Below are positions 5,949-42,956 of a stretch of 48,957 bases of DNA, piece by piece. Every line of letters begins with the position of its first letter. Position 1 is the first letter of the stretch. The stretch is taken from positions 1 to 48,957 of the IMG/VR virus record IMGVR_UViG_3300032242_002508, one strand, 5' to 3'. This DNA is from a virus. Made by a program: the position numbers and the translations under genes. Under the pieces are notes generated by a model. It searched no databases. It worked only from the letters and a program-made list of their open reading frames with translations, and had not been told where the DNA came from.

Positions 5949-5977
5949 ATTATATACTGATATTTAGAAAAAGTCAA
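5949..5977 (-). promoter_or_regulatory. Sigma70-type promoter, leaderless geometry
   Basis: TTGACT (5972..5977), a 17-nt spacer, and TATAAT (5949..5954) on the minus strand. Only six bases (ACACAC) separate the -10 from the ATG at 5942, so the expected transcription start coincides with the start codon. The -35 overlaps the stop codon of the upstream helicase gene. Confidence 0.85.
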
Positions 5978-10699: not shown

Positions 10700-11146
10700 A
10701 TGAGATTAGCCGAAATCATATCTGAAGCTTCTAGTCCCGCACAACAAGCTGCCATAGCTATTGCCATGAAGAAAGCTGGAAAGAAACCAAAAAGTGAAGA
10801 TGTAGCAGAAGGTGAAACTTGGGCCAAACACAATCATAAGCGTGTTGGTGGAATGAGTAAGAAAAGCGTTAGTGTATACCGTAGAGAACATCCAGGCAGC
10901 AAGATTCAAACAGCAGTAACTACTAAACCAAGTAAACTCAAAAAAGGTAGCAAGGACGCTAAACGCCGTAAAAGTTTCTGTGCAAGAATGAAGGGTATGA
11001 AGAAACACAATACAAGTGCCAAAACAGCACGTGACCCAAATAGTAATATAAACAAAAGTTTGCGTAGATGGCATTGTGAGAGCATAGAAGAACTACACGA
11101 ATTAGTTATGTTGGCTGAACAATTTATACAGAGAAGCAGAAAATGA
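10700..11146 (+). CDS. Virion-type basic protein with capsid-targeting-like leader, 148 aa
   Basis: Starts MRLAEIISEASSPAQQAAIA. The leader MRLAEIISE|A closely parallels the capsid-targeting sequence of T4 internal proteins, which is cut by the prohead protease after I/L-x-E. A second such site, DVAE|G, precedes a Lys/Arg-rich domain with RRKSFCARMKGMKKHN and NINKSLRRWHC, a Cys/basic domain frequent in T4-like phage proteins (DUF6321-like, from memory). Probably packaged with DNA (inference). First gene of a plus-strand operon; overlaps the next gene by ATGA. Confidence 0.82.
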   Translation: MRLAEIISEASSPAQQAAIAIAMKKAGKKPKSEDVAEGETWAKHNHKRVGGMSKKSVSVYRREHPGSKIQTAVTTKPSKLKKGSKDAKRRKSFCARMKGMKKHNTSAKTARDPNSNINKSLRRWHCESIEELHELVMLAEQFIQRSRK

Positions 11147-11984: not shown

Positions 11985-13802
11985 ATGAACCTCAAAGAGT
12001 TATACGAAGGAGCTACTCCAAAATTACCCGGTGCTGTTCAAGGCATTCAAATAATGACCCCACAACAGTTTATTGCCAAATCTGCCGCAGGCGAAGAACC
12101 TGGCTCTGAAGTAGACGAAGGTCTAGCAGGTGCAATAGCAGGTGGAGCACTTGGCGCTTACGAACTTAAAACTCCTGCAGGAGCTATGACTGGTGCCAAC
12201 ATAGGTAGCAAGTTACAAGATTTAGCAGCAAGTAGCGGTGTAATGGGTGTAGCGGAAGGCTTGTCAGAGATGGATAATCGTACACCAAGCGGTGACCGTA
12301 GAGAACAGCGTAATAATAGCCCTGAAGCAATAGCCCAGCGTGAAAAAGAACAACAAGAAAGATTAAAAAAAGTAAGTCCTGCAATGCGTAAAAAATTAGG
12401 CTTACCTGAACCAAAGCAAGGTGTGGCGAAAGGCTTGAATGAATTCGCACCAGATGGGTTCGGTGGTGATGACGGCGATGGTTTTGACCCAGATATGGCC
12501 AAGATGGCACATGAGGAAGGCTTTACAAAAGGTGTAAGTCTTGCAATGGTTGCTACATTAGAACGAGCAATGGAAATTGGACACTGGCATAAACGACATG
12601 GTGGCATGTATAAACATTACTTTGCTAAAGGATTCAAAGAGGGGCGTTTGGCAAGAATACGCCACGACAACAAACAATACGATCTCAACCTACAGTTGAA
12701 TAAAGATGGTAGTGTCAGTCACGGTGAGCAGGATATGGCGGAAGCAACAGCATTACCTGCTAGCACCCGTGAATTGAAAGGTCAAGAGTTAACAGATTAT
12801 CTAGACCGTATTCGTAATCAAGAAAAACAGAAAACAGACAAATATAAATTACCCTACATTCATCGTAGTTCAGTTATTGGATACTATAATGCTGAAGGTA
12901 AAAAATATAATACTGACGCTATCAAAGCAGGATTAAAAGAAAGACCAAAAGCACTTCTTAAAAAGAATGAGAAGATGAGACACAGTGATGGAGCACAAGA
13001 ACAATTCTTTAATATTGGATTTGCTGCATTAGTTGGTGTTGCACTAGATGAAAACACGAATGAAATAATTATTGTTAATACATGTCCAGGGGCTGGCAGT
13101 TGTAAAGTAGATTGTTTTGCTATGAAGGGCGGTAAAGTACAATTCGCTGGCCCGTGGTTAAGTGATGGTCGTATACTTACATATCTATTAAATCATCCTA
13201 GTGAATTCTTTGAACAATTAAAATCAGAAATTAGTAAAGAAGCAGCAAAAGGTAAAAAAGGTGGTTACTCAGTAAGTATTCGTTGGCATGATGCTGGTGA
13301 CTTCTTTAGTCCTGAGTATATGAACATGGCATTTAAATTAGCACAATCATTACCTGATGTTAAGTTTTATGCTTATACTAAAGTAGCAGCGGCAGCAATG
13401 GCTAATAAACCTAGTAACTTCATTATCAACTGGAGCGAAGGTGCAAGTACTAGCCAAGAAAAACAAATTAAAAGAACTGATCCAAACTTAGACACAACTA
13501 AGAATAGTCGTATTGTTCCTAGTAGTTTGTTTTATGATTTATTAGTTAAGGATTCTAAAAAGAATTTAGTTAAAGGACCTGAAGGTCAATGGCAAGTAAT
13601 ACCTGATGAATTACCTGAACTAAAACAGCGTCTAGCTGATAAGTATGGCATAAGCAAAAATAGCATATTAAGCTATGATGAATGGAATACTAAGGGCAAG
13701 AATAATAAATCAATGAAGTGGAATGTTATTGTTGCCCCGGGAGAGCCTGATTTAACAGCAAATGACCCTGGTGTATTAAGTACGTTATTATTAAAGCATT
13801 AA
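11985..13802 (+). CDS. Cargo protein with GP88-type domain and capsid-targeting-like leader, 605 aa
   Basis: The leader MNLKELYE|GATPKL fits prohead-protease cleavage (L-Y-E|G). Further L/V/M-x-E|G/A sites occur at about 45 (VDE|G), 91 (VAE|G) and 253 (MAE|A). Residues 45..250 are low-complexity and helical. The C-terminal half (about 258..605) has NTCPGAGSCKVDCFAMKGG (Cys 367, 373, 377) and RWHDAGDFFSPEYMNMAF, hallmarks of the phage GP88 family of unknown role. GGAAAC precedes the ATG. The stop overlaps the next start as TAATG. Confidence 0.85.
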   Translation: MNLKELYEGATPKLPGAVQGIQIMTPQQFIAKSAAGEEPGSEVDEGLAGAIAGGALGAYELKTPAGAMTGANIGSKLQDLAASSGVMGVAEGLSEMDNRTPSGDRREQRNNSPEAIAQREKEQQERLKKVSPAMRKKLGLPEPKQGVAKGLNEFAPDGFGGDDGDGFDPDMAKMAHEEGFTKGVSLAMVATLERAMEIGHWHKRHGGMYKHYFAKGFKEGRLARIRHDNKQYDLNLQLNKDGSVSHGEQDMAEATALPASTRELKGQELTDYLDRIRNQEKQKTDKYKLPYIHRSSVIGYYNAEGKKYNTDAIKAGLKERPKALLKKNEKMRHSDGAQEQFFNIGFAALVGVALDENTNEIIIVNTCPGAGSCKVDCFAMKGGKVQFAGPWLSDGRILTYLLNHPSEFFEQLKSEISKEAAKGKKGGYSVSIRWHDAGDFFSPEYMNMAFKLAQSLPDVKFYAYTKVAAAAMANKPSNFIINWSEGASTSQEKQIKRTDPNLDTTKNSRIVPSSLFYDLLVKDSKKNLVKGPEGQWQVIPDELPELKQRLADKYGISKNSILSYDEWNTKGKNNKSMKWNVIVAPGEPDLTANDPGVLSTLLLKH

Positions 13803-16737: not shown

Positions 16738-18086
16738 TACAGTCCATCAAATAAACTTAGACCAATAACTTCTTCAACTGGTCTAAAAGCTGGGTCTTTA
16801 GATAAGTATGTATCATTATCTGTGTAGATAATATTAATAAATTTTTTCTTATTAGATAACACACTTTCAAAATCTTCACGTGCCAAATGTGTACGATTTA
16901 AATTATTAATATAATCACGGTATTGAACAGTGTCATATGTATTAATCTTAGCCGCATTGGTATTGCTACGCTTACCTACAAAATCATCTAAAAATTGAAT
17001 CCAACCTTTAGCTACTTCATCATCTAATTTTTTGACATAATCTAATGCCGAAATCAATTGATCACCACCGTAAATTGTTTTGATCAATTCGCTAGCATTC
17101 TTTATATCTACCTTGTGAAAGTATTGACTGTTAAAGTTATCACTCCAGTCTTGTGTATCTAGTACTACACATGGCATGTGTCCAAGACATTCTAAAAATG
17201 CAAATGGATAATTCTCACGCAAACTAGGCATAAAAAATACACTACTACTATGAATAAAATCTACTTTCTCTTTACCAGTAATACCTGCCTTAATCACATA
17301 ATCAGTAATACCTGCATCGGAGAATGCTTTTTCAAACTTCTTAGCACCATTGCTATTAGTCATTACTTTGCAGGGAAGTTTACATTCTTTCATTACCCGA
17401 ATATATGCTTCAGGGTTTTTACCTTCTTCCCAACGTCCAATAAATAGAACGCCTTTGCGATCACCGGTATATCTTTCTAGTAAGCCACGCTCACTCATTG
17501 GCATTGGCAATAAATGACAGTTTGTTGCTCCGTACTTAGTTAGTTCATCAATATTCTTTTGGCTTTGTGTACCAATAATGATATCAGTAAACTCCATATG
17601 TTTGTTATAGAAGTTATGATAACTGTCTAAGAATACATCACTGCCCTGACTTTCACGGAAAATCATGCTATGCAAGTGTGTATAGAATACAACAGGAATA
17701 TATTGATTGACAGTCATAGCATACGCTGCCGTCATTGCCTCTTGTGTATTACACACCAGCATATCATATATGTTAGTTTCAAATCCCTGTAGTATACTTT
17801 TTCTAAAATTTACAATTTTTTCAAAATTAATAGTATCACTAAATGCAAATGTAGCTGTATGGTCTGAATACTTAAGAGGTTCTTTTGGTGAAATAATATT
17901 TGCACCCAAACTCTCTATAAGTTTGCTAAAATCATTTGTAGGTGCTTTGTCTAAGATAATATCAACTTTCCAGTTGATACGTTGACACATTTCGGTAAAG
18001 CCTTTTGCAAAACTACCAATACCACCATGTGGAATAAAATGTTGATCACTAATCAAAAAACCAATTCGTTTTTCATAAAGCTTCAT
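16737..18086 (-). CDS. GT-B glycosyltransferase (GT4-like), 449 aa
   Basis: Start set at the ATG at 18086 (MKLYEKRIGFLISDQHFIPH), whose ATG overlaps the QueE stop as TGATG; the ATG at 18098 (MGNL) is an alternative. The sequence has the GT-B layout: HGGIGSFAKGFTEM in the acceptor domain, VLFIGRWEEGKNPEAYIRVM opening the donor domain, and SSVFFMPSLRENYPFAFLECLG with the retaining-GT4-type E-x7-E. It could glycosylate DNA bases or a surface polymer. Its place between QueE and an epimerase favours a modification role (inference). Confidence 0.85.
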   Translation of the reverse strand: MKLYEKRIGFLISDQHFIPHGGIGSFAKGFTEMCQRINWKVDIILDKAPTNDFSKLIESLGANIISPKEPLKYSDHTATFAFSDTINFEKIVNFRKSILQGFETNIYDMLVCNTQEAMTAAYAMTVNQYIPVVFYTHLHSMIFRESQGSDVFLDSYHNFYNKHMEFTDIIIGTQSQKNIDELTKYGATNCHLLPMPMSERGLLERYTGDRKGVLFIGRWEEGKNPEAYIRVMKECKLPCKVMTNSNGAKKFEKAFSDAGITDYVIKAGITGKEKVDFIHSSSVFFMPSLRENYPFAFLECLGHMPCVVLDTQDWSDNFNSQYFHKVDIKNASELIKTIYGGDQLISALDYVKKLDDEVAKGWIQFLDDFVGKRSNTNAAKINTYDTVQYRDYINNLNRTHLAREDFESVLSNKKKFINIIYTDNDTYLSKDPAFRPVEEVIGLSLFDGL

Positions 18087-18943
18087 CAGGTTCCCCATTC
18101 GTTTTTGAAGAGTGGCACCTGAAGTCGGTCACTATACCGCCATCCTTCTCGCATTGCCATTTCTGCCACACGCCTATTATTAAGATTGTACACCCGTTCA
18201 ACACCACCAACAGGCATAAGATAAACAGGACCCTTAAAGCCATGCTCACGATATTCTTTGACCGCTTGTCGAGCATCTAATAGATCCTCTTCACTTGCTA
18301 TAACAAATTTCAAGTAAGTATAGCCGACTTTTTCATAGTCGCACACTACTTCAGGAAGTATAGCTTCTTCCCATTTTTCACCACTCACTGGAAGTTTAGC
18401 ACTGACACTAAATGTAACTTCTCTTTGTTTGCAAAGCCGATCGCTCCAATTAACCAAATATTGTTTAAACTCTTTAGTTAATTTCTGAGTGCCGTTAGTT
18501 TCAAAAGTCAAATGACGCAATGCAATCATTGAATCTTCATCTAGAAGTTCAGGATAGCTACGTTGCCAACCCAGTAATGGTTCGCCACCTGTGATAACAA
18601 GATGTTCATCATGCCAACGCTTATATGGCAGAATTTCCATAATGCGATTAACGATAGCATCAGTAATAAGTACAGGACTCAGTTCTTTAAATGCCGGCAT
18701 CCAAGAAGCATATGAGTCGCAACCTGTGCTTACTAGTGGCAATTCTTTATAGTCTTTGTACGGAGTATTTCCATGAGCAAATGCTACTTGAATTCTTTCT
18801 AGGCTTTTTTCACCACGGGACATACCAAATCCATCGCAGGTGAAATTACAGCCAAATGTGCGAAGGAACACACTTGGTACTCCTGTGTAACGGCCTTCTC
18901 CTTGTATTGAATAGAACAATTCACTAACCTTAATCTTACTCAT
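18086..18943 (-). CDS. queE: 7-carboxy-7-deazaguanine synthase QueE, 285 aa
   Basis: A radical SAM enzyme converting carboxytetrahydropterin to 7-carboxy-7-deazaguanine. Seen: ELFYSIQGEGRYTGVPSVFL (QueE N-terminal signature), Cys32 and Cys36 in GCNFTCDGFGMSRGE, and ITGGEPLLGWQ (SAM-binding GGEP). The expected third cluster cysteine is not at +3 from Cys36; Cys75 (STGCDSYAS), 38 residues further on, is the best candidate. This pattern matches my memory of phage QueE variants. Start at 18943; the ATG at 18997 lacks support. The gene overlaps the 62-aa gene by eight bases. Confidence 0.9.
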   Translation of the reverse strand: MSKIKVSELFYSIQGEGRYTGVPSVFLRTFGCNFTCDGFGMSRGEKSLERIQVAFAHGNTPYKDYKELPLVSTGCDSYASWMPAFKELSPVLITDAIVNRIMEILPYKRWHDEHLVITGGEPLLGWQRSYPELLDEDSMIALRHLTFETNGTQKLTKEFKQYLVNWSDRLCKQREVTFSVSAKLPVSGEKWEEAILPEVVCDYEKVGYTYLKFVIASEEDLLDARQAVKEYREHGFKGPVYLMPVGGVERVYNLNNRRVAEMAMREGWRYSDRLQVPLFKNEWGT

Positions 18944-19124
18944 CAATATAATCCTTAAATAATTGCACACGGGCTTTTTTACCCAACTCTTGGTCAAAGA
19001 TAACTCTTACCGAAGTCAACATTGCACAGGCTAGCATTAACAAATCTTCCCTATTGTCGCACATCATAATTTGGCGATCAATGGGTTCCATTAATTCTGC
19101 CATACGGTTTCTAATGTCACTCAT
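18936..19124 (-). CDS. Small helical conserved phage protein, 62 aa
   Basis: MSDIRNRMAELMEPIDRQIM followed by REDLLMLACAMLTSVRVIF and a charged tail. Two predicted helices. Closely similar short proteins are common in T4-like aquatic phages (style recognised, function unknown). AGGAAACACAA precedes the ATG, and a sigma70 promoter (19146..19174) lies just upstream, making this the first gene of the unit that includes queE. Confidence 0.8.
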   Translation of the reverse strand: MSDIRNRMAELMEPIDRQIMMCDNREDLLMLACAMLTSVRVIFDQELGKKARVQLFKDYIDE

Positions 19125-20343: not shown

Positions 20344-20868
20344 TTATCCCTCGTAGATTGCTGAGTTAGCACCATGTTCAAATACTTCAACACTTTTGAG
20401 TCTTGCATTAGGATTAATAGGATATCGCATATTACCACTGTCTAATAACTCAGCCATTTTGTCATAAGCCATTTTAGCAAACATCTCGCATCCTACACCT
20501 TCTACAATGCGTAAATCACATAAAGCACCTCGCTCATGTGGTTTTAGTTCAGGTTGAATTCCTACACCTGACATTGGCATTTCGCCCATCCAACTCATTT
20601 TGCGAAAGAAATCTACGTGTGGATCATCTTCTGCAATAATTAGTGTATGATCAAACATGTAATCAGCCCAAGATTTAAATTCTTTTAAGCCACCAAAGTC
20701 CATACACCAATTTTTATCATCTAATGTTTCACATTCAAACACTAATTTAATACCAATACTATATCCATGCAATGTACTGCAATGACTGTGCTTAGCACGC
20801 CATTGTCTAAAACAACAACTTAGTCCCCTATCATTACCATAGGTCTTGGTTGAATAAAACTTTGCCAT
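20344..20868 (-). CDS. queD: 6-carboxy-tetrahydropterin synthase QueD, 174 aa
   Basis: Makes 6-carboxytetrahydropterin from dihydroneopterin triphosphate, the second step to 7-deazaguanines. Seen: zinc-site region AKHSHCSTLHGYSIG (the usual HGH appears as HGY), MDFGGLKEFKSW, DHTLIIAEDDP, the pterin-binding GCEMFAKMAYDKM and VEVFEHGANSAIYE. Start at the ATG at 20868; a TTG three codons upstream is less likely. Its stop is two bases before the DadA-like start, so the two are co-translated. Confidence 0.9.
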   Translation of the reverse strand: MAKFYSTKTYGNDRGLSCCFRQWRAKHSHCSTLHGYSIGIKLVFECETLDDKNWCMDFGGLKEFKSWADYMFDHTLIIAEDDPHVDFFRKMSWMGEMPMSGVGIQPELKPHERGALCDLRIVEGVGCEMFAKMAYDKMAELLDSGNMRYPINPNARLKSVEVFEHGANSAIYEG

Positions 20869-20869
20869 A

Positions 20870-21073
20870 TTATTCAATCAAATTAGATACTAATGTTTTG
20901 ATTTCAGAATCAGTTAAAAAGAATTGATATGTACTGGTATCAACGACCTCATCTTTATCATTTTTTGTTTCTTGTACAAACTCAATATGATTCAAATCAT
21001 TTGGCTTAAGACATTTTTTGCTTTTGACTTTAAGTTCATAGCCAGTTACTTTTTTCAATGTAAATTCTTTCAT
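20870..21073 (-). CDS. Small hypothetical protein, 67 aa
   Basis: MKEFTLKKVTGYELKVKSKK and an acidic C-terminal helix (DSEIKTLVSNLIE). Predicted mostly beta followed by a helix. AAAGGTAATAAA precedes the ATG, and its stop lies directly before the queD start. No family recognised. Confidence 0.72.
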   Translation of the reverse strand: MKEFTLKKVTGYELKVKSKKCLKPNDLNHIEFVQETKNDKDEVVDTSTYQFFLTDSEIKTLVSNLIE

Positions 21074-21939: not shown

Positions 21940-22065
21940 TTAAACTTTACATATACAGTTGCGACCTTGATTACAATTTCCATTGCAATTACTATTAATT
22001 GCAGTTTTAAAAAATATAATATAAATTATAGCAACAATTACAATCAAGGTCAATATGGTCAACAT
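21940..22065 (-). CDS. Small Cys-rich membrane protein, 41 aa
   Basis: An N-terminal hydrophobic helix of about 19 residues (MLTILTLIVIVAIIYIIFF) is followed by a short tail with four cysteines in NCNGNCNQGRNCICK. The ATG overlaps the folE stop as TAATG, and AAGGA lies seven bases upstream, so translation is well supported. Short phage proteins ending in a C-N-Q-G-R-x-C motif are familiar to me, but I know no function. The tail may bind metal. Confidence 0.7.
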   Translation of the reverse strand: MLTILTLIVIVAIIYIIFFKTAINSNCNGNCNQGRNCICKV

Positions 22066-22739
22066 TATCGCATCCTTGCAATCTGATAAAATTCATTACG
22101 AACTTCAGGATCAGATTTAAATCCGCCACCAAGTCTAGTAGTGACGGTACTGCTACCTGTATCTTCAACTCCCCTTGATTTTACACAATAATGCTGTGCA
22201 TCAATCATAACCGCAACATCATTTGTTTCAAGGATAAATTGTAATGTATGAAAAATTTGTTCAGTTAACCGTTCTTGAATTTGTGGGCGTTTGCTAAAGT
22301 ATTCTACAATACGGTTGATTTTGCTGAGACCTAATACTTTTCTGTTTGGTACATAGGCTACAGTTGCTAGTCCGTCAATGATAACAAAATGATGTTCACA
22401 GTTACTTTGAACATTAATATTTCGTTCAACTACCATTTCATTATAATGCATTTTGTTGTCTACTGTAGTACATTTTGGGAATGCTTCATAATCAAGACCC
22501 CAAAAAATTTCTTGTACATACATTTTTGCAACACGATTAGGTGTTTCTATTAGACTATCATCACTTAGATCCAATCCAAGCGTACTCATAATCTCACGAA
22601 AATGAGATTCAATCTTAGAAATTTTCTCTTTACGCTCAAGTCCGTTTGCAATAGTAGGAGTTTCTACTCCCATACGTACTAGATGTTCGTGTACTAATAG
22701 TCCTAGTTCAGGATCTGTTTTGGTCTTATTAAAACTCAT
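22065..22739 (-). CDS. folE: GTP cyclohydrolase I FolE, 224 aa
   Basis: Converts GTP to dihydroneopterin triphosphate, the entry step to 7-deazaguanine. Seen: ETPNRVAKMYVQEIFWG, NVQSNCEHHFVIIDG with zinc ligands Cys114 and His117, VLGLSKINRIVEYFSKRPQI, and AQHYCVKSRGVED with Cys185, followed by the STVTTRLGG substrate loop. Length matches bacterial FolE (about 220). Start at 22739, preceded by GGAGGG; longer readings have no ribosome site. The leader carries an inverted repeat and a CATAAATA box. Confidence 0.95.
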   Translation of the reverse strand: MSFNKTKTDPELGLLVHEHLVRMGVETPTIANGLERKEKISKIESHFREIMSTLGLDLSDDSLIETPNRVAKMYVQEIFWGLDYEAFPKCTTVDNKMHYNEMVVERNINVQSNCEHHFVIIDGLATVAYVPNRKVLGLSKINRIVEYFSKRPQIQERLTEQIFHTLQFILETNDVAVMIDAQHYCVKSRGVEDTGSSTVTTRLGGGFKSDPEVRNEFYQIARMR

Positions 22740-22778
22740 TTGATAACCCTCCGTTGTGATGGTTTTGTTTTGACATTT

Positions 22779-22796
22779 TGTCACCGTTGTGTGACA
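22779..22796 (-). promoter_or_regulatory. Inverted repeat in the folE leader
   Basis: TGTCAC and GTGACA arms (six bp) around a six-base ACAACG loop. If transcription starts from the adjacent CATAAATA box, this hairpin forms the extreme 5' end of the mRNA. CACAACGG recurs just before the folE ribosome site (CACAACGGAGGG). It could protect the 5' end or act as a protein operator. Confidence 0.4.
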
Positions 22797-26374: not shown

Positions 26375-27922
26375 TTAATTCTCTAATACTTGATTCATCA
26401 TATCATCACTATCTTCAATTGTTTCTTCTTCAGGTTCTTCTGTGGAAAATAATTGATCAAACATAGTCATGGCATTTACTGTTTTCTTACCACTAAATCC
26501 CTGACTACCGCTTTGCATTTGCATCCAAAATCTACTGTGATGATCAATCAAGTCCAAACTCTTTTGACGGTCTTTTAATGAGAAAATTTCATCTACTAAT
26601 TCACTAAAACGAATACGCTCAAAAGTTTCATTCATAATCATTTTTGGAATGATTCCCTGTTCATATCTACGATTAGCCTCTTGTACAGCACTGATATGCT
26701 GAAATACATTGTGACTTTGTATTAGTGTGTAACTTAATGTGTCCCAACTGGTTTTTGTTTCTTTGTTATGTTGACCAATGAATCCTTGACCCCTGTAACA
26801 CAAGTCCTTCATAAGCATTCTATCAGTTACGGGACTATCTGTAAACAGTTTATGGACACCGTCCTGTAAAACACCATCACTAAATTTGCGAGTGTCAGTA
26901 GCATAGGATTTTTTCTCTGCGGTTTTTTCCATGCTATAGGACCATTTTTTATTATGTTCAATACTGGTATTGAAATATGCTAGTCCTTTAGCCGCACTGA
27001 AAAACGGGCTGGCACAGTCAAAAGTAATCTGTAGTTTTGGATTATGATACTTACGAACCGCTCGTTGGATATCTGTAAACAATACCGCATATTCTAAGAT
27101 ACTAGTACCCAAACAATGAATCAAATCATGTTTACCTTCTTGTAGAAGACCATCGTGGATAATTCCTACAATTCGTTTTAGTGTAAGATGAATATCAATT
27201 TTATTTTGTCCACCAAATGCCCATCCATTGAAATGATTCTCAGGATAAATATTTGGGTCACAATATTTTTTCATCTCTTCATACCACTGGTCGCTTTGAG
27301 TATGAGTAAGACCTTGTAATACATTTAAGAACTTACAGTTACCATTACGGTTCTCAATAAAATATTCGTTATTGATATGAGTAGCATCAATAGCCTCTTG
27401 AATTGTACTGATACCATGTAAAGACTTACCTGTTTTTGGATCTTTCAAGTGAAATGTGCGTAGAGATTGCGAAGGGATATCAAGACACATACCATAGTCC
27501 ATGTATGTGTCCATCCAATTAAGGACTGCTTTACGCTTAATCATTGCTTTGGGACAGTTAGGATCTTTCCAATCAGCAGGCCATTGGCCCTTTAGAATCT
27601 GAAAGCCCCCTGAATCACCTAGCATGAAAGTACCCGCTTCACGGTCACGGATAATACTTTCATTGAAATCAACTTTAGTAGTATCTAAGTTGGCATGACC
27701 TGCACTGTACAAGCCCCACTTGTAATAGTACAGTCCCTCTTTGCTATTAAGAAAATTAAGTTTTTCTACATCACCACCAAACCCTTGTGGGATTCTTGCA
27801 GGGTCAAAATACTGTTCACCATTACGTTGCTTACCCAAGCCAGCAATGTAAAAACTACTGACTGCCGGCAAGAATAGTGCCCAATCGGGGTTGTGTGATG
27901 TTGATAGATTTACTTGTTCCAT
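26375..27922 (-). CDS. dpdA: DpdA-like DNA 7-deazaguanine transglycosylase, 515 aa
   Basis: A tRNA-guanine-transglycosylase-fold protein. Known phage DpdA enzymes exchange guanine in DNA for a 7-deazaguanine base. Seen: LGDSGGFQILKG (base-binding D103), YGMCLDIPSQS, NVLQGLTH, GWAFGGQN and IHCLGTS, and ITFDCASPFFSAAKGLAYF, where D302 sits at the nucleophile position. The C-terminal zinc motif of tRNA-type TGTs is missing, as expected for DpdA. An acidic tail ends the protein. TAATG coupled to the upstream 110-aa gene and the clamp operon. folE, queD and queE in the same window support DNA modification. Confidence 0.88.
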   Translation of the reverse strand: MEQVNLSTSHNPDWALFLPAVSSFYIAGLGKQRNGEQYFDPARIPQGFGGDVEKLNFLNSKEGLYYYKWGLYSAGHANLDTTKVDFNESIIRDREAGTFMLGDSGGFQILKGQWPADWKDPNCPKAMIKRKAVLNWMDTYMDYGMCLDIPSQSLRTFHLKDPKTGKSLHGISTIQEAIDATHINNEYFIENRNGNCKFLNVLQGLTHTQSDQWYEEMKKYCDPNIYPENHFNGWAFGGQNKIDIHLTLKRIVGIIHDGLLQEGKHDLIHCLGTSILEYAVLFTDIQRAVRKYHNPKLQITFDCASPFFSAAKGLAYFNTSIEHNKKWSYSMEKTAEKKSYATDTRKFSDGVLQDGVHKLFTDSPVTDRMLMKDLCYRGQGFIGQHNKETKTSWDTLSYTLIQSHNVFQHISAVQEANRRYEQGIIPKMIMNETFERIRFSELVDEIFSLKDRQKSLDLIDHHSRFWMQMQSGSQGFSGKKTVNAMTMFDQLFSTEEPEEETIEDSDDMMNQVLEN

Positions 27923-33325: not shown

Positions 33326-33904
33326 TTATTGGAAAATATGGTGATTCTTTTCACCATATATCTTAATAAATTTCCCAGCAAGCATATCGGCTTGTGCTTC
33401 AATCGGGCTACCTGGATAACTTGAACCTGGCTTAATCATGTCTAATTCACCTTGGCGAACATGTACCAATTCATGAAACACTGTTCTTAATATATCTACT
33501 AAATTGCGGTTTTTGGCATAAACCCAAACACTATTTTCACCATCAACATGTCTACCAGTATGGTGCTGACTTTGTGCTTCTTCAGTATCCATACTTAGTT
33601 CAATCTTTGGTCTTTTCTCTAATTTTAATATACCAGATGCCCAATCAGCAAATTTATTCACTTCATCTTCTATATCTAAATCATCTGAATCAGTTTCATC
33701 TAATTTATTTTTTATCCAACGCTCAGGATTTTTTTTATATTTTTTAACAAATAAATTATGTAAAGCCTTACCTGTAATATTGTGTTTAACTGCAATATCA
33801 CGCATAAGCTTATCTATAGTATCGTAGTTATGCTTTTTTAAAGAAGGTAGTTTTTTGGCTAATTCAGCAGCAGCAGATTCTACGATAATTTCATTTGTGT
33901 TCAT
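33326..33904 (-). CDS. Zinc metallopeptidase-like cargo protein with capsid-targeting-like leader, 192 aa
   Basis: Leader MNTNEIIVE|SAAAELAKKL fits prohead-protease cleavage (I-V-E|S). The N-terminal 65 residues (LMRDIAVKHNITGKALHNLF) are a helical domain common in T4-like phage proteins. After an acidic linker comes a peptidase domain with FHELVHVRQGELD (HExxH at 144..148) and SPIEAQADMLAGKF with a glutamate suited as third zinc ligand. Preceded by a CATAAATA box inside the carbamoyltransferase end. Confidence 0.82.
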   Translation of the reverse strand: MNTNEIIVESAAAELAKKLPSLKKHNYDTIDKLMRDIAVKHNITGKALHNLFVKKYKKNPERWIKNKLDETDSDDLDIEDEVNKFADWASGILKLEKRPKIELSMDTEEAQSQHHTGRHVDGENSVWVYAKNRNLVDILRTVFHELVHVRQGELDMIKPGSSYPGSPIEAQADMLAGKFIKIYGEKNHHIFQ

Positions 33905-35692: not shown

Positions 35693-37423
35693 TTATCCAT
35701 TTACCACATGACGGAGAACAAACCTATTAGGATCTAGTGAACTAGCACTATTTCTAGCCATGCGGCGATAATCATCTAATCGTGCCAATGCTTGTTCATC
35801 GTCCTGTGCCTGAAAAAGTTCATACTCTTCACCAGTTCTACTGTCATAAATTTGATATTCATTATTTCTACTAGGTGGTGGACCAAATGCAGGTTCAGCA
35901 GGACCGGCACTTACTTTTGCTTTAATAGGCTCATTAGGTTTTTGTATACCTCTTGCTTTTTTAAGTAAAGTTATTAAGTCTTGTTTCTGCAATTGACCAG
36001 ATGAATATTTAGCAAAAACATCAAGTGCATCGCCTTTCGTTGTAGGTTTTAATAATTTATATAATTTTTTAAGATATTCCGTACGATATTTTTGTGGATC
36101 ACATGCAGCATCTAATGCTACTACAAATCGTAATAGTGTATTTTCTAATTTAGGTATATCTTCATTTAACCAATCACCACCTGGGCTGCGAAATTCAATA
36201 TAGCCCTCTTTAGCATTAATACTAACATATTTGCCAGTATTGCCACTATGAATAAGTTTTGCTGCCTCTACACTTAGTCCCTTTCTCATTTCATCAAAAA
36301 AACCAAGTAACTCAGGTTCACCCTGCATATAAGTGGCTCTAGACTGTAAACTACTCATTGCACTTTTTGCGAAACTATTTGCTGAACGACCAAATTGGTC
36401 TAATACATATTCATCACCTAATAATAGCGCAAGTTTTACATAGTCTAATTTTTCACGGCTACAACCAGGCACACTTACATTCATGTGTAAACCTGTACTT
36501 CTATTAGTATAACAATTGTTTGTTCTAGCCCACTGAACTACTTCATTTAAACTGGTAATCATTTCATCTAAGGGCAATGGATTACTTACAAATTCTAGAC
36601 CTGAATCACTGGGCTCTTTCTTTGAAGTAAGACTACCATCTGGTTCTATAGTGTAAGTATCATTTGGTTTACTACGGCCAATACTTGTCCAATCGTTGCT
36701 TCCACCTGACATATAATAACTACCATGGTAACTATCACTTACCGCTATGTTGTTAAGACCTAAGTCTGTCATAAACTGTAAAGCAACTTGTTTTATAGTT
36801 CTTTCGCCTCCAGCCTCTGGATATGTCCAATATGGCCAAGTAATGTCATAGCCCATTTCAATATCACTCATGAATCTAATGCCTGAATCTCTTAAAAACT
36901 CTCTTTCATTTGAGTCATCATTCATATATTCTTCAAGCATAGATTCTCTAAAAGCCTCGTCCGCTTGATCATATATGGCATTACCATGACCTTCTTCTAC
37001 AGCATCGTCAACTAATTCTTCAAGGTGACCTTTAGTATTGTATTCAATATTTTCTTTTGCCCATTGATATACATGCTCGGTTGGAGAATGATTCCAATCT
37101 TCACTTATTTTTTCAAGTACCCATTCTGTATATTCTTCTTGTAATTTGCTATGTAATCTACCAACTTCACTTGGGCTATTCCATTCACCATCGGCTTCGA
37201 AAAATTCATATATTTGGTCAAGACTTCTTACAGGTCGATCTTCATCATAATCAGGCTCTGGACCTGAATCTTCATCTTCGCCACCTGCAACATCAGGTAC
37301 ATACATTTCAAATTCCATACCTGCTATGGCACCGGTGCCTGCTGCTAATTGCTTTAATGAGCTTGGACTCATATCTATTTCGTCCAAGACTTGGGTTTCA
37401 TTTAAAAATTCTTTTGCTCTCAT
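35693..37423 (-). CDS. Amidoligase-type cargo protein with capsid-targeting-like leader, 576 aa
   Basis: Leader MRAKEFLNE|TQVLDEID fits prohead-protease cleavage (L-N-E|T), with VLDE|I just after. The body matches the amidoligase group of COOH-NH2 ligases (glutamine-synthetase fold): AGMEFEMYVP (35..44), TIEPDGSL with later GLEFVSNPLPL, TGLHMNVSVPG and YIEFRSPGGDWL. Such enzymes form amide bonds on peptides or modify amino groups. The C-terminal 100 residues hold a basic linker and a QDDEQALARLDDY tail. Starts with ATG at 37423 behind a weak ACTAAATA box. Confidence 0.82.
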   Translation of the reverse strand: MRAKEFLNETQVLDEIDMSPSSLKQLAAGTGAIAGMEFEMYVPDVAGGEDEDSGPEPDYDEDRPVRSLDQIYEFFEADGEWNSPSEVGRLHSKLQEEYTEWVLEKISEDWNHSPTEHVYQWAKENIEYNTKGHLEELVDDAVEEGHGNAIYDQADEAFRESMLEEYMNDDSNEREFLRDSGIRFMSDIEMGYDITWPYWTYPEAGGERTIKQVALQFMTDLGLNNIAVSDSYHGSYYMSGGSNDWTSIGRSKPNDTYTIEPDGSLTSKKEPSDSGLEFVSNPLPLDEMITSLNEVVQWARTNNCYTNRSTGLHMNVSVPGCSREKLDYVKLALLLGDEYVLDQFGRSANSFAKSAMSSLQSRATYMQGEPELLGFFDEMRKGLSVEAAKLIHSGNTGKYVSINAKEGYIEFRSPGGDWLNEDIPKLENTLLRFVVALDAACDPQKYRTEYLKKLYKLLKPTTKGDALDVFAKYSSGQLQKQDLITLLKKARGIQKPNEPIKAKVSAGPAEPAFGPPPSRNNEYQIYDSRTGEEYELFQAQDDEQALARLDDYRRMARNSASSLDPNRFVLRHVVNG

Positions 37424-37428
37424 AGTAT

Positions 37429-37436
37429 TATTTAGT
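37429..37436 (-). promoter_or_regulatory. Late-promoter-like box ACTAAATA
   Basis: ACTAAATA on the minus strand, five bases before the ATG at 37423, at the stop codon of the GNAT gene. Two mismatches from the T4 late consensus make it tentative. Confidence 0.3.
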
Positions 37437-38209
37437 TAATTACCCCAATTTGCTAACAGTCCAACCTTGTATAAAAATGGTAGATTGTACACATCATTGT
37501 AATAAATCTTTATGGCATTGTTGATTGCTTTAAATTCTTTTTCACCGGCATGTACTGGGAACAAATACCAATGTTTATTAATCGCACGGGATAGTGTACT
37601 TGAAGGGCCTTTATTTACACCTAAACTTTTTGCCCCTGCTTTGGTCATAGATTTTTCAAATTTCTTTTGAATTTTAACTAGTTCAGGATTACTATTTGCT
37701 TGTTCACTTACATTGACCCAACCCCAACCTGATATCATAACACCGGGTGTTTTACTTAAACTGATCCAATTTCTACGACCACCTACTGTTTGGCTTTCAC
37801 CCGCTATTAATTGTATGCCCTGATCTCTAAGTGCTATCTTGTACAATAGATTACCAATACCCATACCACGATATTCTTCGTCAACGGTAACAAACTCTAC
37901 GGTGTATGCAGGTTGCAATGGAAAATCTTTTACTGGAGATAATACCAAGTCACCTATTATTCTGTCAGAGTTATTAACTATGATAATATGATATTGACCA
38001 ACATCATCTTTTGGAATAATACCATATCTTAAATCCTGATCATCGGGAACAGGCTTTAACTTTTTAAACATAGCATTTATTTGTGTGCTAGCCGCTCGTT
38101 CTAGTTGACCGATGTAATCCTTGCCTTGGCTTGATAATTCAGATTGTGGTATTCTAACAATAGCATCTTGTACTATTTCTTCGTCAACCACAAACTCATT
38201 TAGTCTCAT
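37436..38209 (-). CDS. GNAT acetyltransferase-like cargo protein, 257 aa
   Basis: Start at 38209 (MRLNEFVVDEEIVQDAIVRI), where the ATG overlaps the Dps stop as TAATG; the longer frame to 38248 is inside Dps. The leader MRLNEFVVDE resembles the capsid-targeting leaders of neighbouring genes. The acetyl-CoA-binding signature is EYRGMGIGNLLYKIAL. The C-terminal half (NKHWYLFPVHAGEKEF, then IKIYYND) is similar to the region after the GNAT module of the 706-aa protein at 13802..15922, so the two are paralogous. Confidence 0.83.
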   Translation of the reverse strand: MRLNEFVVDEEIVQDAIVRIPQSELSSQGKDYIGQLERAASTQINAMFKKLKPVPDDQDLRYGIIPKDDVGQYHIIIVNNSDRIIGDLVLSPVKDFPLQPAYTVEFVTVDEEYRGMGIGNLLYKIALRDQGIQLIAGESQTVGGRRNWISLSKTPGVMISGWGWVNVSEQANSNPELVKIQKKFEKSMTKAGAKSLGVNKGPSSTLSRAINKHWYLFPVHAGEKEFKAINNAIKIYYNDVYNLPFLYKVGLLANWGN

Positions 38210-38649
38210 TATGCACGAGCTTTTTTCAAAGTAGCACGTAACATCCAAGCATTCTTTGTATACAAATCTTGTAACTCAGCCATATAGTTAGCAATGCCTT
38301 GAGCATTTTGCTCGGTAGCAACATCAAATATTTCAACTACTAGTCTTGTCATTGTTTCGGAATTCTCTAACAATTCTTCTAGCATTAATTCAGCACGAGG
38401 AATTTTATACTGTTCTTCAATGATACTTAGTTCAAGCATTCTACCCAAGCTTCCAGGTGAATAACTATCTAATGTTCTGATATATTCAGCGATAGTATCA
38501 ATAGTTTCGTAAATATTTTCATACATTTTATTTAAAAATTTATGATATTGAGGAAAGTCAGGGCCTTCGATATTCCAATGAAATCCATGTGTTTTAGTGT
38601 ACACTACAAATGTACTTCCTAATAGAGTTTTTAATTTATCTGCTAACAT
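38209..38649 (-). CDS. Dps/ferritin-like protein, 146 aa
   Basis: A four-helix-bundle protein of the Dps family, which binds DNA and oxidises and stores iron. The ferroxidase positions are retained: FHWNIEGPDFPQYHKF (His24, His36) and ETIDTIAEYI (Asp51, Glu55). Length is typical. The ATG overlaps the stop of a 15-codon micro-ORF (TAATG), and its own stop overlaps the GNAT start. It has no capsid leader but lies inside the cargo gene series, so it may protect DNA during infection. Confidence 0.88.
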   Translation of the reverse strand: MLADKLKTLLGSTFVVYTKTHGFHWNIEGPDFPQYHKFLNKMYENIYETIDTIAEYIRTLDSYSPGSLGRMLELSIIEEQYKIPRAELMLEELLENSETMTRLVVEIFDVATEQNAQGIANYMAELQDLYTKNAWMLRATLKKARA

Positions 38650-38696
38650 TATTTTGGGTATCCTTTTCTATTCCAATAAAAATCAAAGTCTGTCAT
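38649..38696 (-). CDS. Putative 15-aa coupling micro-ORF
   Basis: Encodes MTDFDFYWNRKGYPK. Its ATG overlaps the stop of the 1170-aa gene (ATGA), and its stop overlaps the dps ATG (TAATG), so it exactly bridges the two genes. It may only carry ribosomes from one to the other. AAGAAAAAAG upstream is a weak ribosome site, while AAAGGA inside the micro-ORF could serve dps. Confidence 0.4.
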   Translation of the reverse strand: MTDFDFYWNRKGYPK

Positions 38697-41600
38697 TTCT
38701 TTTTTCTTCCCTGACAATGAGCACGTTGTGAAAATCCTTTTGGATGACTACAATCTATGCTTCTTTTATATTTATCGCTCCACTTCTCTTTCAATTCTTC
38801 CTGCTCACTAGTAATAGTCATTATACGATAACCACCTTTCTTTTTAAAAGGACCATATTCTTGTTCATAAGACCCAGGCATTGGTAAGCCTTTTGTTTCG
38901 CTTATGCCTTGAAGAATTGAACTTTCATTAGTTTTCTTTTTAGTAGCAACATTGATAGCTTTTCCGTGACGTTCTGGGTTAGGATCTTCTCTACGCTTTC
39001 TAGCGGCCGCACTTGCACGACCCTTTTTACCTAAATTTTGTGCTTTGCTTTGTGGTAAACATTTTGGTTTACCTTCACTGTCATCACCTCTAGCACAAGC
39101 ACCACGTATCTTGCCATCAGGTCCAAATCTTACCCACTTCTCTTTGAACCATTTATGTAAGTTTTCATCAGTTTGTTCTATACCTTCTAATATAGAACTC
39201 TCACTCTTTGTTCCCCAGTTGCTAGCACCTTTCTTACGACATTGTACTAATGCACCTGACGCATACGCACTGGGCCATACCTTGTAACGACTTTTTACTT
39301 TATAGTAACAAGCATCTTTCTTTTCGTTAATCATTTCTTCACTAAACATTGGACCACCGCATTCAGGACATTCTTGGTGATCTTCGTTGGTATTCTTCAC
39401 ACAGTTAGGATATGTTTTACCAAACATTATCTTGTTACCTTCTTTATGGTAACCTTTCCAACAAGCTTCGTCAAGTTCTTCTAATGTCATTGTTTGCTCC
39501 CATACTTGACTATCTTCTCCGCGATTTTTATCCCAAAAGTGTTTACCGGCTTTGGTTTGATCACTACTGCGACGAATAGTAAACCCAAGACTTTTTACAT
39601 AATCATACATTGTTTTGGCAATGCTCTGCCCACGAAACTCTTCATCTATAGCAAGATCAGCAGGTACTAGAGTACTACCATCGCGGTCAAATACAGCATA
39701 ACCTGCTTGATATCCATCAACTATAGGACGAATGATTACTTCACTGCCATCAATAGCAACATTTAATTTTATACCACCAACGTCAACATTAGTGCCTTCC
39801 GCTATACTCTTTTTTGCTTCTGTTAAATTATATTTTTTACCAAATCTTTTGGCATAATTAACATATCCGTTGTGTGTATTGAAAGTTCCCTGTCGGTCTC
39901 GTAAGAATCTTTCATTGGGTTTTGGAATTACCCAAACAGCACTGGGTTTTATTCCACCATAGTTAACCACATTGTGGTATCGTTTCATAAGATACTGTAT
40001 AGTAGAATCACTGATTCTATTTACCAACCATTTACCGGCAATAGCAATCGTTTCAAAATCAACATTGGGTTGTTGTAATTTAACTCTAAGTTCTTCAGGA
40101 ACTGCTTGACCAATTTTTAACAGATTTGGTTGTAAATTTTTAGTATTAACTAACTGTCTTAATAAGCTACCTAGTTCATCTTCATCTGGTGTAACAGTTG
40201 CTAAGTTTTTTCCTGAAAATTCAAATACGTAACCATTTGGTTCTTGTTTAATATATTCAGCATATTGTTCGTCGGGAACATTAGACATAAAACTATATCT
40301 AACCGCATTACCAAATTCTTTAGTCATATAGACGCCTGGCAAAGGTGCAAAATTTTCTTGACCTTTATATTTTTGTGCTATTAATTCTGGATCAATTTTT
40401 AACCCTTGACTAGAGATACCCTGATAACCAGCCTTGGTAGGTGTTCCGTGATATAAAACACTGGATTGTAGTTTTTGATCGGGCACAACAGCTTCCTCTA
40501 CACCTTGTTTGTAGAGTGATATATTTTTTAATGGAATAACTCCATGATATTCTATGGTGTCACCTTCATTGTCTTGTACATTACTATCAATTTGAAACTT
40601 GTTTGGATCTAGTCCTGCTGTAGAAATTTCAAGTATAACAATTTGATCCAACCACTCATCGGGAACCATGTCACTAGTTTCAGCATAACTTTCTGCCACA
40701 TATGGGTCTAAAGCAAGATATACGACACCACGCTTACTATCTTCCCAGTTTCTCTTTCCGCCTGCACCTAGTCCTTTTAATTTGATATTCTTTAATCTTG
40801 GTTTATAAGTAGCATGGTATAGTATTGGCGGTATACTTTGTTCTATGCCTTCCGCCACACCTTGCTGACCTTCTTCTATATTTTGTAAAACTTCTTTAGC
40901 GTGGGGCAGGACCTGTTGTAAAGTAGGGCATTTACTTTTTCCATATCCCAACTCTAGCAAATTTTTCTCACTAATCTCAATTTCTTCTGCGTTACCGTTA
41001 TTTGGATATTTTTGCAACATCCAATTAACATCAGTCTCTCCAGAAGCATCAAGACGCCATCTTTCATCAAGTTTTACATACGCATGAATTAATACTGTAC
41101 TACCCATTTGTTCATCATACTCAACCAATGCCATTAATGGCATCTTAGATAGTCTGTGTAATGCAATTGCAAAAATAGGGCAATCACCTTCTTCAAAATT
41201 CAACTTGCCTTCTGCTACACCTTGCTTACGCAATGTATGCCGTGCTTGGCCTGCATCATAATCTGCACCTAATCGTTTGTATATACTGGCAGCGGCATTA
41301 TTCGTATCTGTATCTGATGTTACCGCATACTGTTTACTTAAACTTTTTAACAAATCTGTATAAAGACCACGACCTCTTAACTCGTCATCAAACACTTGAG
41401 AATATTCAACTACCAGTGAATCACCCGCTAGATCAGCCCAAACACCAGCAACAGTCTTACCAGCAGGATCAGTTACTCTGACGAATGTGTTTGCCGCTAC
41501 ATCACTTTTCCAAGGTACTTCACGCCCTGCTTCAAACCGCCAAGTGTAACCTAAGCCAGTCGTTCCACTAATTGGTGACGAACCATCTTCAAATACATCT

Positions 41601-42205
41601 CTACCCCAAGCTTTCCACATTTCACCACCTGCAGTACTTTTATATGGACTTGGTTTAATATCATTACCTAGATTCTTAGCATATTGATACATTGCTGTAG
41701 CAATACCTTTGCCACGATATTTTTCCTGAACTTTAGTGTCATCACTTTCTAGCCAACTATCACCGTTCTTACCTTTTTTACGAACTAATACAAAACTTGC
41801 TGAGCCTATAATATCCATAGTTTTAGGATCATATGCTTTTACTACTAGACCCTTAGCATCTTTACCATATACCATAGATCCTTCAAATTCACTAGCATCA
41901 AATATGTAGTTGCCAATTTTTTCAGGTTTAGTACTAAAGATTGGTGCATTCTTTGGTCTGTTAAAAATCTCTGGGCTAGTTTTTTCTGTAACTTGTTTTT
42001 CAGTATCATCCTCAGGCTTTTTAGTTGGAGGAATGATACGGTCTAGTTCTTTTTGAAACTTTTCTCTATCAGGTTGACTTTTTTTACGTTCACGTTCTAA
42101 TGCACGATTAAAACGCAATTGTGCTGGACTAGGCCCACCCCAATAGGATTCTGTTACATCATTTGTTTCGGTATCCTTGCCAATACCTTTTAAAATGCTG
42201 CTCAC
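38693..42205 (-). CDS. Giant modular polyprotein: 3 GNAT, papain-like, 2 ADP-ribosyltransferase-like and Cys-rich modules, 1170 aa
   Basis: GTG start (MSSILKGIGK) after AAGGGATAA. Modules by eye: GNAT 98..205 (YRGKGIATAMYQY), GNAT 215..325 (LRGRGLYTDLL), papain-like 335..445 (DCPIFAIALH Cys342, His374, Asp386), ART-like 459..565 (ILYHAT, VVYLALDPYVAESYA), ART-like 583..765 (VLYHGT, GVYMTKEFGNAVRYSF), GNAT 805..905 (FRGQSIAKTMYDYV), and Cys-rich zinc/basic domains 913..1170 (CPECGG, KVKSRYKVWPSAYASGALVQ, GFSQRAHCQG). VAE|G or IAE|G sites fall between modules (331, 451, 802), and SSILxGI recurs at 2, 1003 and 1095. Confidence 0.85.
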   Translation of the reverse strand: MSSILKGIGKDTETNDVTESYWGGPSPAQLRFNRALERERKKSQPDREKFQKELDRIIPPTKKPEDDTEKQVTEKTSPEIFNRPKNAPIFSTKPEKIGNYIFDASEFEGSMVYGKDAKGLVVKAYDPKTMDIIGSASFVLVRKKGKNGDSWLESDDTKVQEKYRGKGIATAMYQYAKNLGNDIKPSPYKSTAGGEMWKAWGRDVFEDGSSPISGTTGLGYTWRFEAGREVPWKSDVAANTFVRVTDPAGKTVAGVWADLAGDSLVVEYSQVFDDELRGRGLYTDLLKSLSKQYAVTSDTDTNNAAASIYKRLGADYDAGQARHTLRKQGVAEGKLNFEEGDCPIFAIALHRLSKMPLMALVEYDEQMGSTVLIHAYVKLDERWRLDASGETDVNWMLQKYPNNGNAEEIEISEKNLLELGYGKSKCPTLQQVLPHAKEVLQNIEEGQQGVAEGIEQSIPPILYHATYKPRLKNIKLKGLGAGGKRNWEDSKRGVVYLALDPYVAESYAETSDMVPDEWLDQIVILEISTAGLDPNKFQIDSNVQDNEGDTIEYHGVIPLKNISLYKQGVEEAVVPDQKLQSSVLYHGTPTKAGYQGISSQGLKIDPELIAQKYKGQENFAPLPGVYMTKEFGNAVRYSFMSNVPDEQYAEYIKQEPNGYVFEFSGKNLATVTPDEDELGSLLRQLVNTKNLQPNLLKIGQAVPEELRVKLQQPNVDFETIAIAGKWLVNRISDSTIQYLMKRYHNVVNYGGIKPSAVWVIPKPNERFLRDRQGTFNTHNGYVNYAKRFGKKYNLTEAKKSIAEGTNVDVGGIKLNVAIDGSEVIIRPIVDGYQAGYAVFDRDGSTLVPADLAIDEEFRGQSIAKTMYDYVKSLGFTIRRSSDQTKAGKHFWDKNRGEDSQVWEQTMTLEELDEACWKGYHKEGNKIMFGKTYPNCVKNTNEDHQECPECGGPMFSEEMINEKKDACYYKVKSRYKVWPSAYASGALVQCRKKGASNWGTKSESSILEGIEQTDENLHKWFKEKWVRFGPDGKIRGACARGDDSEGKPKCLPQSKAQNLGKKGRASAAARKRREDPNPERHGKAINVATKKKTNESSILQGISETKGLPMPGSYEQEYGPFKKKGGYRIMTITSEQEELKEKWSDKYKRSIDCSHPKGFSQRAHCQGRKKK

Positions 42206-42209
42206 AGTA

Positions 42210-42956
42210 TTATCCCTTAATCTTTTTTGCTATCTCATGTGCTTTAACTATTGTACTTTTTTTCAAAGGTGGACGATCACCTGTTGATTTCATGGATTGA
42301 GCCATACCAATAGCATATGGATTAGCTTTTTTCTTAACACTTTCACCAGCCATTCCATTACCAATAACTCCACCAGTCATTTCATTTGCAAATCTTTGCT
42401 GTTCCATGTACTCACGCACAGTGTTTAAATAATCACTGGCTTTGATAATCTTTTCTTGTACCCAACCTTCTATACCATCTTCTTCGCTTACATCACCAAG
42501 CATATCAAAAATCATTTTTGCATTTTTAATAGACTGATAAAGATCGCCTTTAGCCATTTCTACTTCTCTATCAGTTCTATCTGATGCTTTAGAAATGAAT
42601 CCTCTTGTGTTTCTGCCGTGTCCAGGAACTAGAATTAAATCTTCTTCTTGTAAGTCATCTTCGTTGACTTTTTCAGGCTTGGCAGTTAAAATCTTGCGAG
42701 CTTCTTTCTTAGTTAGATTATACTTCTTTTGAAACTCGGCATCTGTTAAATCTTTAATATCCATTGCCAGTTCTTTGACACGACCTTCAGTTAAGCTATT
42801 AGCATATGGCTTACTAGTTTTCTTACCTTTGAATAAGTTACCTACTTTTTTCTGTCCATAGATACTTGGATTTCTTGTTTGCATACCGTTCATTGCAAAC
42901 GGTACAGTAGCAACTGAACCGGCAGTTGTTGATTCTATAATCTGATTAATTTTCAT
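42210..42956 (-). CDS. Virion-type protein with capsid-targeting-like leader, 248 aa
   Basis: Leader MKINQIIE|STTAGSVATV (I-I-E|S) and a later SLTE|GRVKEL site fit prohead-protease cleavage. The central part EVEMAKGDLYQSIKNAKMIF and GWVQEKIIKASDYLNTVREY matches a helical domain found in many structural proteins of aquatic T4-like phages; the N-terminal GRVKELAMDIKDLTDAEFQK is a short helical module. Likely head-associated. The GATAAATA box (42979..42986) lies 22 nt upstream. First gene of the second cargo series. Confidence 0.8.
   Translation of the reverse strand: MKINQIIESTTAGSVATVPFAMNGMQTRNPSIYGQKKVGNLFKGKKTSKPYANSLTEGRVKELAMDIKDLTDAEFQKKYNLTKKEARKILTAKPEKVNEDDLQEEDLILVPGHGRNTRGFISKASDRTDREVEMAKGDLYQSIKNAKMIFDMLGDVSEEDGIEGWVQEKIIKASDYLNTVREYMEQQRFANEMTGGVIGNGMAGESVKKKANPYAIGMAQSMKSTGDRPPLKKSTIVKAHEIAKKIKG

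Follow-up and report, generated by a model that had tools for sequence, protein, structure and literature searches.

We analysed a virus record from IMG/VR of 48,957 nt, hereafter the window, whose DNA polymerase is closest to those of T4-superfamily jumbo phages, e.g., Sinorhizobium phage Phosso and Agrobacterium phage Atu_ph07. On its minus strand lies an open reading frame (ORF) of 1170 residues with a GTG start, as described in a first-pass annotation of the sequence. The encoded protein is a row of modules joined by recurring junctions, and we found that the commonest junction is one conserved DNA sequence, hereafter the seam, at which modules are exchanged between related phages; the nucleotide-level repeat and the module swapping had both been missed in the first-pass annotation. 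The features of the ORF are given below, where aa denotes residues, ↓ a predicted cut and L numbers related loci on other viral contigs.

38693..42205 (-): candidate cassette polyprotein ORF, GTG start, 1170 aa (ORF listing and relatives)
42149..42205 (-): N-terminal leader MSSILKGIGKDTETNDVTE↓S, aa 1-19; related phages have further MSSILKG/MSNILKG starts
41510..41920 (-): GNAT acetyltransferase module 1, aa 96-232 (Pfam PF00583, E=1.2e-7)
41222..41509 (-): GNAT-like module 2, aa 233-328 (marginal, Pfam PF13508, E=0.011)
41207..41224 (-): seam 1, QGVAE↓G, aa 328-333, cut predicted after E332; DNA homology to L003, L004 and L005 ends here
40865..41206 (-): cassette A, aa 334-447, called papain-like in the first-pass annotation; fold unconfirmed
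40847..40864 (-): seam 2, QGVAE↓G, aa 448-453, E452; a perfect CAAGGTGTGGCGGAAGGC copy
40493..40846 (-): cassette B, ADP-ribosyltransferase (ART)-like module 1 (ART1), aa 454-571 (YHAT...VYLALD...EYHG)
40490..40507 (-): seam 3, QGVEE↓A, aa 567-572, E571 (sequence and breakpoints)
39806..40489 (-): cassette C, PARP-like ART module 2 (ART2), aa 573-800 (PF00644, E=0.003-0.006, below the cut-off)
39809..41206 (-): interval of exchangeable cassettes, different in each of L002-L005 between flanks of 86-92% identity
39794..39808 (-): seam 4, SIAE↓G, aa 800-804, E803; DNA homology to L002, L003 and L005 ends here
39482..39793 (-): GNAT module 3, aa 805-908 (PF13508, E=3e-10)
39377..39481 (-): C-terminal module C1, LDE↓ACWKGYHKEG...YPNCVKN, aa 909-943 (68 ORFs in relatives; breakpoints at 909-911)
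39197..39376 (-): C-terminal Cys-rich module C2, DUF5872-like, aa 944-1003 (PF19197; phrog_727; 77 ORFs)
39179..39199 (-): internal leader-like junction SSILE↓GI, aa 1003-1009, E1007 (sequence and breakpoints)
38924..39178 (-): C-terminal basic module C3, NLHKWFKEKW..., aa 1010-1094 (phrog_23735; 78 ORFs)
38903..38923 (-): internal leader-like junction SSILQGI, aa 1095-1101 (sequence and breakpoints)
38696..38902 (-): C-terminal basic module C4, EKWSDKYKRSIDC...HCQGRKKK, aa 1102-1170; stand-alone leader-bearing gene in phage Bellamy

The four linker sites reported earlier are all present (VAE↓G at 330-332↓333 and 450-452↓453, VEE↓A at 569-571↓572 and IAE↓G at 801-803↓804), and their P1 residues are E332, E452, E571 and E803; of the cut positions given at the time, E803 was right, while E333 and E453 were each one residue off. 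The N-terminal SSILKGI (residues 2-8) likewise recurs, as SSILEGI (1003-1009) and SSILQGI (1095-1101). The modules themselves fared less evenly. Three GNAT domains had been proposed, of which the first and the third are significant in Pfam (PF00583/PF13508) and the second is marginal. Two ARTs had been proposed as well; ART1 carries conserved motifs (YHAT, VYLAxD, EYxG) and is weakly Tpt1/KptA- or exotoxin-A-like, and ART2, which has relatives in L251 and L252, is weakly PARP-like, both family matches being weak. No Alt-family ADP-ribosyltransferase domain was matched in the ORF, and a sequence search of ART1 and ART2 against the PDB gave no usable match. The papain-like call for cassette A was supported by none of the tools, its structure model being of low confidence, although Cys and His residues are kept in three relatives. 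Structure prediction, which had been put forward as the check on folds and boundaries, was informative for part of the protein: within residues 1-575 the ART1 region was good, the GNATs moderate, and cassette A and the linkers poor, and for residues 560-1010 the quality was too low for use. Foldseek against the PDB returned mostly GNAT-type matches at E of about 0.02, including those of GNAT module 1 (probability 1.0, but E about 0.02), and against a viral library it returned nothing informative. The C3 region (aa 1007-1095) has a net charge of +9.

In many viral contigs, the commonest junction is a single DNA sequence, CAAGGTGTGGCGGAAGGC, read as QGVAEG and conserved even at synonymous sites. 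Among 41 QGVAEG copies picked by protein sequence alone, GGT was used in 41/41, GTG in 33/41 and GCG in 39/41, against background codon use of 0.45, 0.13 and 0.11, respectively. The seam core is about 20 bp long with sharp edges, and first 320 of 320 and then 561 of 561 raw copies lay in the GVAEG frame, with none out of frame or antisense. Viral contigs contain at least 120 stretches matching CAAGGTGTRGCGGAAGGYTC, and 257 Gb of prokaryote genomes contain none. Nor did any of 50,697 isolate phage records match a 33-base seam query, even with E values as high as 10 allowed. A hairpin or palindromic seam was ruled out, as the sequence folds no better than its shuffles on either strand. The same DNA seam is found elsewhere in the window, in a gene on the opposite strand (11985-13802) encoding a GP88-domain protein (PF17338) with the leader MNLKELYE↓G, which carries one seam copy read as MGVAEG and a mutated one, KQGVAKG, in which the P1 Glu has become Lys.

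The viral contig search yielded 77 loci, in which the order of the modules is shuffled and many other domains are interspersed. At the orthologous locus, L002, L003, L004 and L005 match the window with about 86-92% DNA identity until position 39808 (39815 for L004). The match takes up again at 41207 in the three of these contigs long enough to extend there, and these two ends coincide with seams 4 and 1. Between them, the window holds cassette A, ART1 and ART2, L004 holds ART1 alone, L005 holds other cassettes, and L003, by reading of its sequence, holds a ParB-like stretch and others. ART1, 77-93% identical, also lies between two seams in unrelated proteins of L234 and L235, and an L234 protein related to the gene upstream of our ORF (42210..42956, minus strand, leader MKINQIIE↓STTAG) holds this same cassette between two seams. 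The earlier suggestion that several leader-bearing genes had fused is supported: the modules are joined at the named sites, and two of them exist as stand-alone leader-bearing genes, ART1 as a gene of 129-139 aa with a T4-like leader (MIRLKDLLKE↓A or MINNFDLKKFITE↓G) in L237, L240 and L242, and C4 as a gene starting MKSFKQFQE↓S in Synechococcus phage Bellamy. Within this ORF, 45 of 82 DNA-homology breakpoints lie at most 8 aa from an xE site, compared to 13% at random, and most of the remainder fall at the module borders 944 and 1091-1097. Across 157 mosaic ORFs, 397 of 1227 breakpoints (32%) lie within 20 nt of a seam, compared to 5.4% at random, and 69 of the 93 cassette families with at least two members were seen with both neighbours different, families being grouped by single linkage, which over-merges a few of them.

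As the seam is a short repeat with several copies per genome, the mosaics might be chimeric metagenome assemblies joined at these 20 bp. We reject this explanation, which we find barely credible, as separate metagenomes gave the same architectures: two of them yielded the L005/L006 form, and the architecture of L016, L018 and L071 likewise comes from different metagenomes. Moreover, the ORFs stay open across every junction, and the flanking genes are syntenic. The exchange data also bear on the suggestion that the papain-like module cuts the linkers itself, in favour of which are its position between two seams and the one Cys and one His conserved in relatives. However, L003, L004 and L005 retain their seams without the module, because of which we reject self-processing; neither family nor fold searches support a peptidase, and we consider this very improbable.

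Mosaic ORFs of great length are found in two related loci, L251 (1745 aa) and L235; they open with a nucleotidyltransferase-like domain (MNLKELHSFKMSDAVKFHDQL...) and contain many cassettes, one of which resembles a second nucleotidyltransferase (WFHGSRATGQHRKNSDTDILVVI); such ORFs would be a rich source of further candidate effectors.

A codon analysis of 467 non-redundant seam copies showed that the encoded peptide is under selection at two positions, a hydrophobic residue at P3 and Glu at P1. Changes in the P1 Glu codon were synonymous in 20 cases and nonsynonymous in 6 (neutral expectation about 1:7), and P3 was V, M or L in 465/467 copies, whereas the neighbouring Gly residues (P4 and P1′) were near the neutral ratio. 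In the mosaic proteins, the motif [LIVM]xE[GAS] was 2.8 times as frequent as in shuffled sequences and 1.8 times with the seam masked, control motifs giving 0.6-1.4 times, and junctions of unrelated DNA (ILE↓G, LDE↓A or LDE↓N, IAE↓G) retain hydrophobic-x-Glu. Our ORF contains 10 such sites, compared to 3.8 ± 1.6 in shuffles of the same protein, a modest excess when taken alone. The constraint fits the motif of prohead proteases, among which the P3 preference varies, since T4 gp21 prefers L/I-X-E (PMC9026906) and the enzyme of the giant phage SPN3US A-X-E (PMC5694885).

The seam might instead be a DNA-level element only, either recombination homology or an inserted coding mini-repeat spreading with the cassettes, with VAEG tolerated as an uncut flexible linker. 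The extreme synonymous conservation, the sharp edges of the 20-bp nucleotide core and the location of breakpoints at seams all speak for such an element, as does a Val at P3 that deviates from the T4 consensus. However, the selection on P1 Glu and hydrophobic P3 beside near-neutral Gly residues calls for a protein-level reason, the pattern is shared by junctions of unrelated DNA and persists when the seam is masked, and no copy is out of frame or antisense. We regard a purely DNA-level seam as possible but rather unlikely.

Sites of the same type mark the N-termini of many genes in this phage group. In the fetched loci, hydrophobic-x-E-small at residues 5-12 was found 254 times in 1538 ORFs, compared to a mean of 84 in later bins, and the peak is specific to E, as D, Q, K and N show none. 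These leaders have L/I at P3 in 210 of 252 cases and Val in 29, and some of them, for instance MRALEFLNE↓T, MKINQIIE↓S and MKITHIISE↓T, look like those of T4 ipIII (MKTYQEFIAE↓A) and gp24 (MAKINELLRE↓S). The MSSILKG/MSNILKG starts of related phages are in several cases followed by [LI]xE↓[SN], with leaders such as MSSILKGLNE↓S, MSSILKGITINE↓S and MSSILKGLMRE↓N. In T4, the ten N-terminal residues of IPIII are enough to target a protein to the head, and a 7-residue propeptide is removed from Alt (PMC9026906). A T4-type prohead protease (PF03420, gp21) and gp23 homologues are present in six larger relatives, and the syntenic relative on a 335-kb contig (L005, G002) has gp21-, gp22- and gp23-like head genes, its PF03420 match lying at G002:326977-327411 and its gp23 leader reading ...KKQLLAE↓STAG, with the site placed by position.

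Further window genes have starts resembling T4 capsid-targeting leaders: 42210-42956 (MKINQIIE↓S), 33326-33904 (MNTNEIIVE↓S), 10700-11146 (MRLAEIISE↓A), 11985-13802 (MNLKELYE↓G), 35693-37423 (MRAKEFLNE↓T) and 37436-38248 (MRLNEFVVDE, at an internal start of this GNAT gene). They may form a set of head-packaged proteins. The 192-aa product of 33326-33904 contains an HExxH motif (FHELVHVRQ) and is possibly a metallopeptidase; its gene lies two genes from the amidoligase-like gene 35693-37423. In the mosaic proteins of L011, L016, L028 and L035, ...NESAIMKGLK or ...NESAILKGLKL stands directly before the stop codon. This ending nearly repeats the N-terminal leader MSSILKGL/MSNILKGL, as though the leaders of once downstream genes had been absorbed.

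We consider it fairly probable that the ORF is a cassette polyprotein, the precursor of host-directed effectors in a T4-superfamily jumbo phage, probably cut and packaged in the head. The modules of the ORF (GNAT-like and ART-like ones, and small C-terminal ones that are Cys-rich or basic) are independent of each other, and phages gain, lose and exchange them, the breakpoints lying at seams. The hydrophobic P3 and Glu P1 would be retained for cleavage after Glu by the phage prohead protease, a gp21 homologue. The N-terminal leader would bring the precursor into the prohead core, and cutting within the head would give separate enzymes, which could be ejected with the DNA, like T4 Alt and the internal proteins, and then modify host proteins or block defences. 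The seam would thereby act as recombination homology and cut site at once, such that any cassette would fit without a tailored interface. Whether this extends to a general jumbo-phage cassette system, in which CAAGGTGTGGCGGAAGGC is both recombination junction and protease site and plug-in effector domains are exchanged and then released by the prohead protease inside the capsid, we regard as evenly balanced.

Several observations weigh against a cut and packaged polyprotein, and its weakest link is the Val at P3. Val occupies this position in 444/467 seam copies and in both VAE↓G sites and VEE↓A of our ORF, so that three of the four sites named earlier as compatible with prohead-protease cleavage depart from the T4 L/I-X-E preference. 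The sites that do match L/I-X-E before a small residue are IAE↓G, LDE↓A, ILE↓G and LTE↓A. If the Val sites are poorly cut, partial processing or an uncut flexible linker would be the alternatives. Furthermore, P1′ is Glu or Asp in about 10% of seam copies, the protein's own leader site (MSSILKGI...VTE↓S) has its P1 at residue 19 and is not a short L/IxE leader, and the 49-kb record, which does not include the head gene block, has no gp21. The weak ART calls and the unsupported papain call count on the same side. Lastly, most relatives were fetched for carrying modules or the seam, such that the counts apply to this set rather than to phages at large, and copies sharing descent are not fully independent.

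Alternatively, the ORF could encode a polyvalent-type protein, acting in the virion or in host takeover, that has several domains and stays uncut, its junctions being domain borders only. Polyvalent proteins in which ARTs, GNATs and peptidases are combined have been described, and the N4 virion RNA polymerase is packaged unprocessed (PMC5512222). With at least two significant GNAT domains and weak ART-like domains, our ORF has at least two effector domains in one polypeptide, as polyvalent proteins do, but Pfam reported none of their hallmark domains (ArdC-N, MPTase, DdrB-ParB, MuF) for it. The codon evidence for a specific hydrophobic-x-Glu motif argues against an uncut protein, as does the occurrence of the Cys-rich C modules alone or permuted, with xE junctions, in cyanophages, and we think this alternative improbable.

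Packaged ARTs, capsid-targeting leaders, multidomain polyvalent proteins and phage domain shuffling are each known (PMC5512222, PMC9503650, PMC10684548, PMC9026906). The gp21-cut T4 proteins IPI-III and Alt (PMC9026906, PMC3012670) resemble the present case in their short leaders ending in hydrophobic-x-E↓small, found in many genes of this phage group, in the T4-type gp21, gp22 and gp23 of relatives, in ART-like cargo and in diverse cargo sharing one leader type. However, T4 cargo is encoded by separate single genes, whereas the present ORF combines many domains into a single precursor that has internal sites, the main one having Val at P3. The polyvalent proteins (Iyer et al. 2017, PMC5512222) are likewise large, mosaic, multidomain phage proteins that include GNAT and ART domains and for which packaging and injection have been predicted; unlike them, our ORF matches no hallmark domain and has a codon-conserved shared seam and internal hydrophobic-x-Glu sites, and its carriers are T4-superfamily jumbo phages. 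Ongoing domain exchange between phage proteins has been described (Smug et al. 2023, PMC10684548), mainly for receptor-binding proteins, endolysins and polymerases; searching the text of that paper turned up neither linkers nor short homology, whereas here one identical 20-bp junction joins many unrelated cassettes. Homologues of C1, C2, C3 and C4 occur in the cyanophage T4-GC119/phrog_727 proteins (P-SSM2 PSSM2_123, Bellamy 122/123), which adjoin neck or terminase genes and have some xE↓ junctions; in contrast to our ORF, the GVAEG DNA seam was not detected in isolates, and the C modules of the examples read stand apart from GNAT/ART cassettes. One isolate homologue, in S-SCSM1, is annotated 'virion protein', and virion proteomics has been published for S-SM1 (PMC3037559). 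With most subscription papers outside our reach, we came across no description of phage effector cassettes linked by a shared seam with conserved codons, and neither GVAEG together with phage nor the T4 ipIII leader sequence led to a paper in text searches.

If the cassette reading is correct, a large group of uncultured aquatic jumbo phages builds delivered effectors from swappable cassettes with a built-in cut site, which would explain the quick diversification of injected proteins. The seam would then provide a 20-bp DNA tag for finding hundreds of candidate effector or counter-defence domains in metagenomes, and the cleavage specificity of a non-T4 prohead protease would become directly testable.

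Elsewhere in the window, genes at 18086-18997, 20344-20877, 22065-22784 and 26375-27922 resemble by eye QueE, QueD, FolE and a TGT/DpdA-like enzyme, respectively, which suggests a 7-deazaguanine modification of the phage DNA; the last of these had no Pfam match at E 0.01. The gene at 5974-7773 encodes a helicase (ResIII/DEAD) with an HNH-like stretch at its C-terminus.

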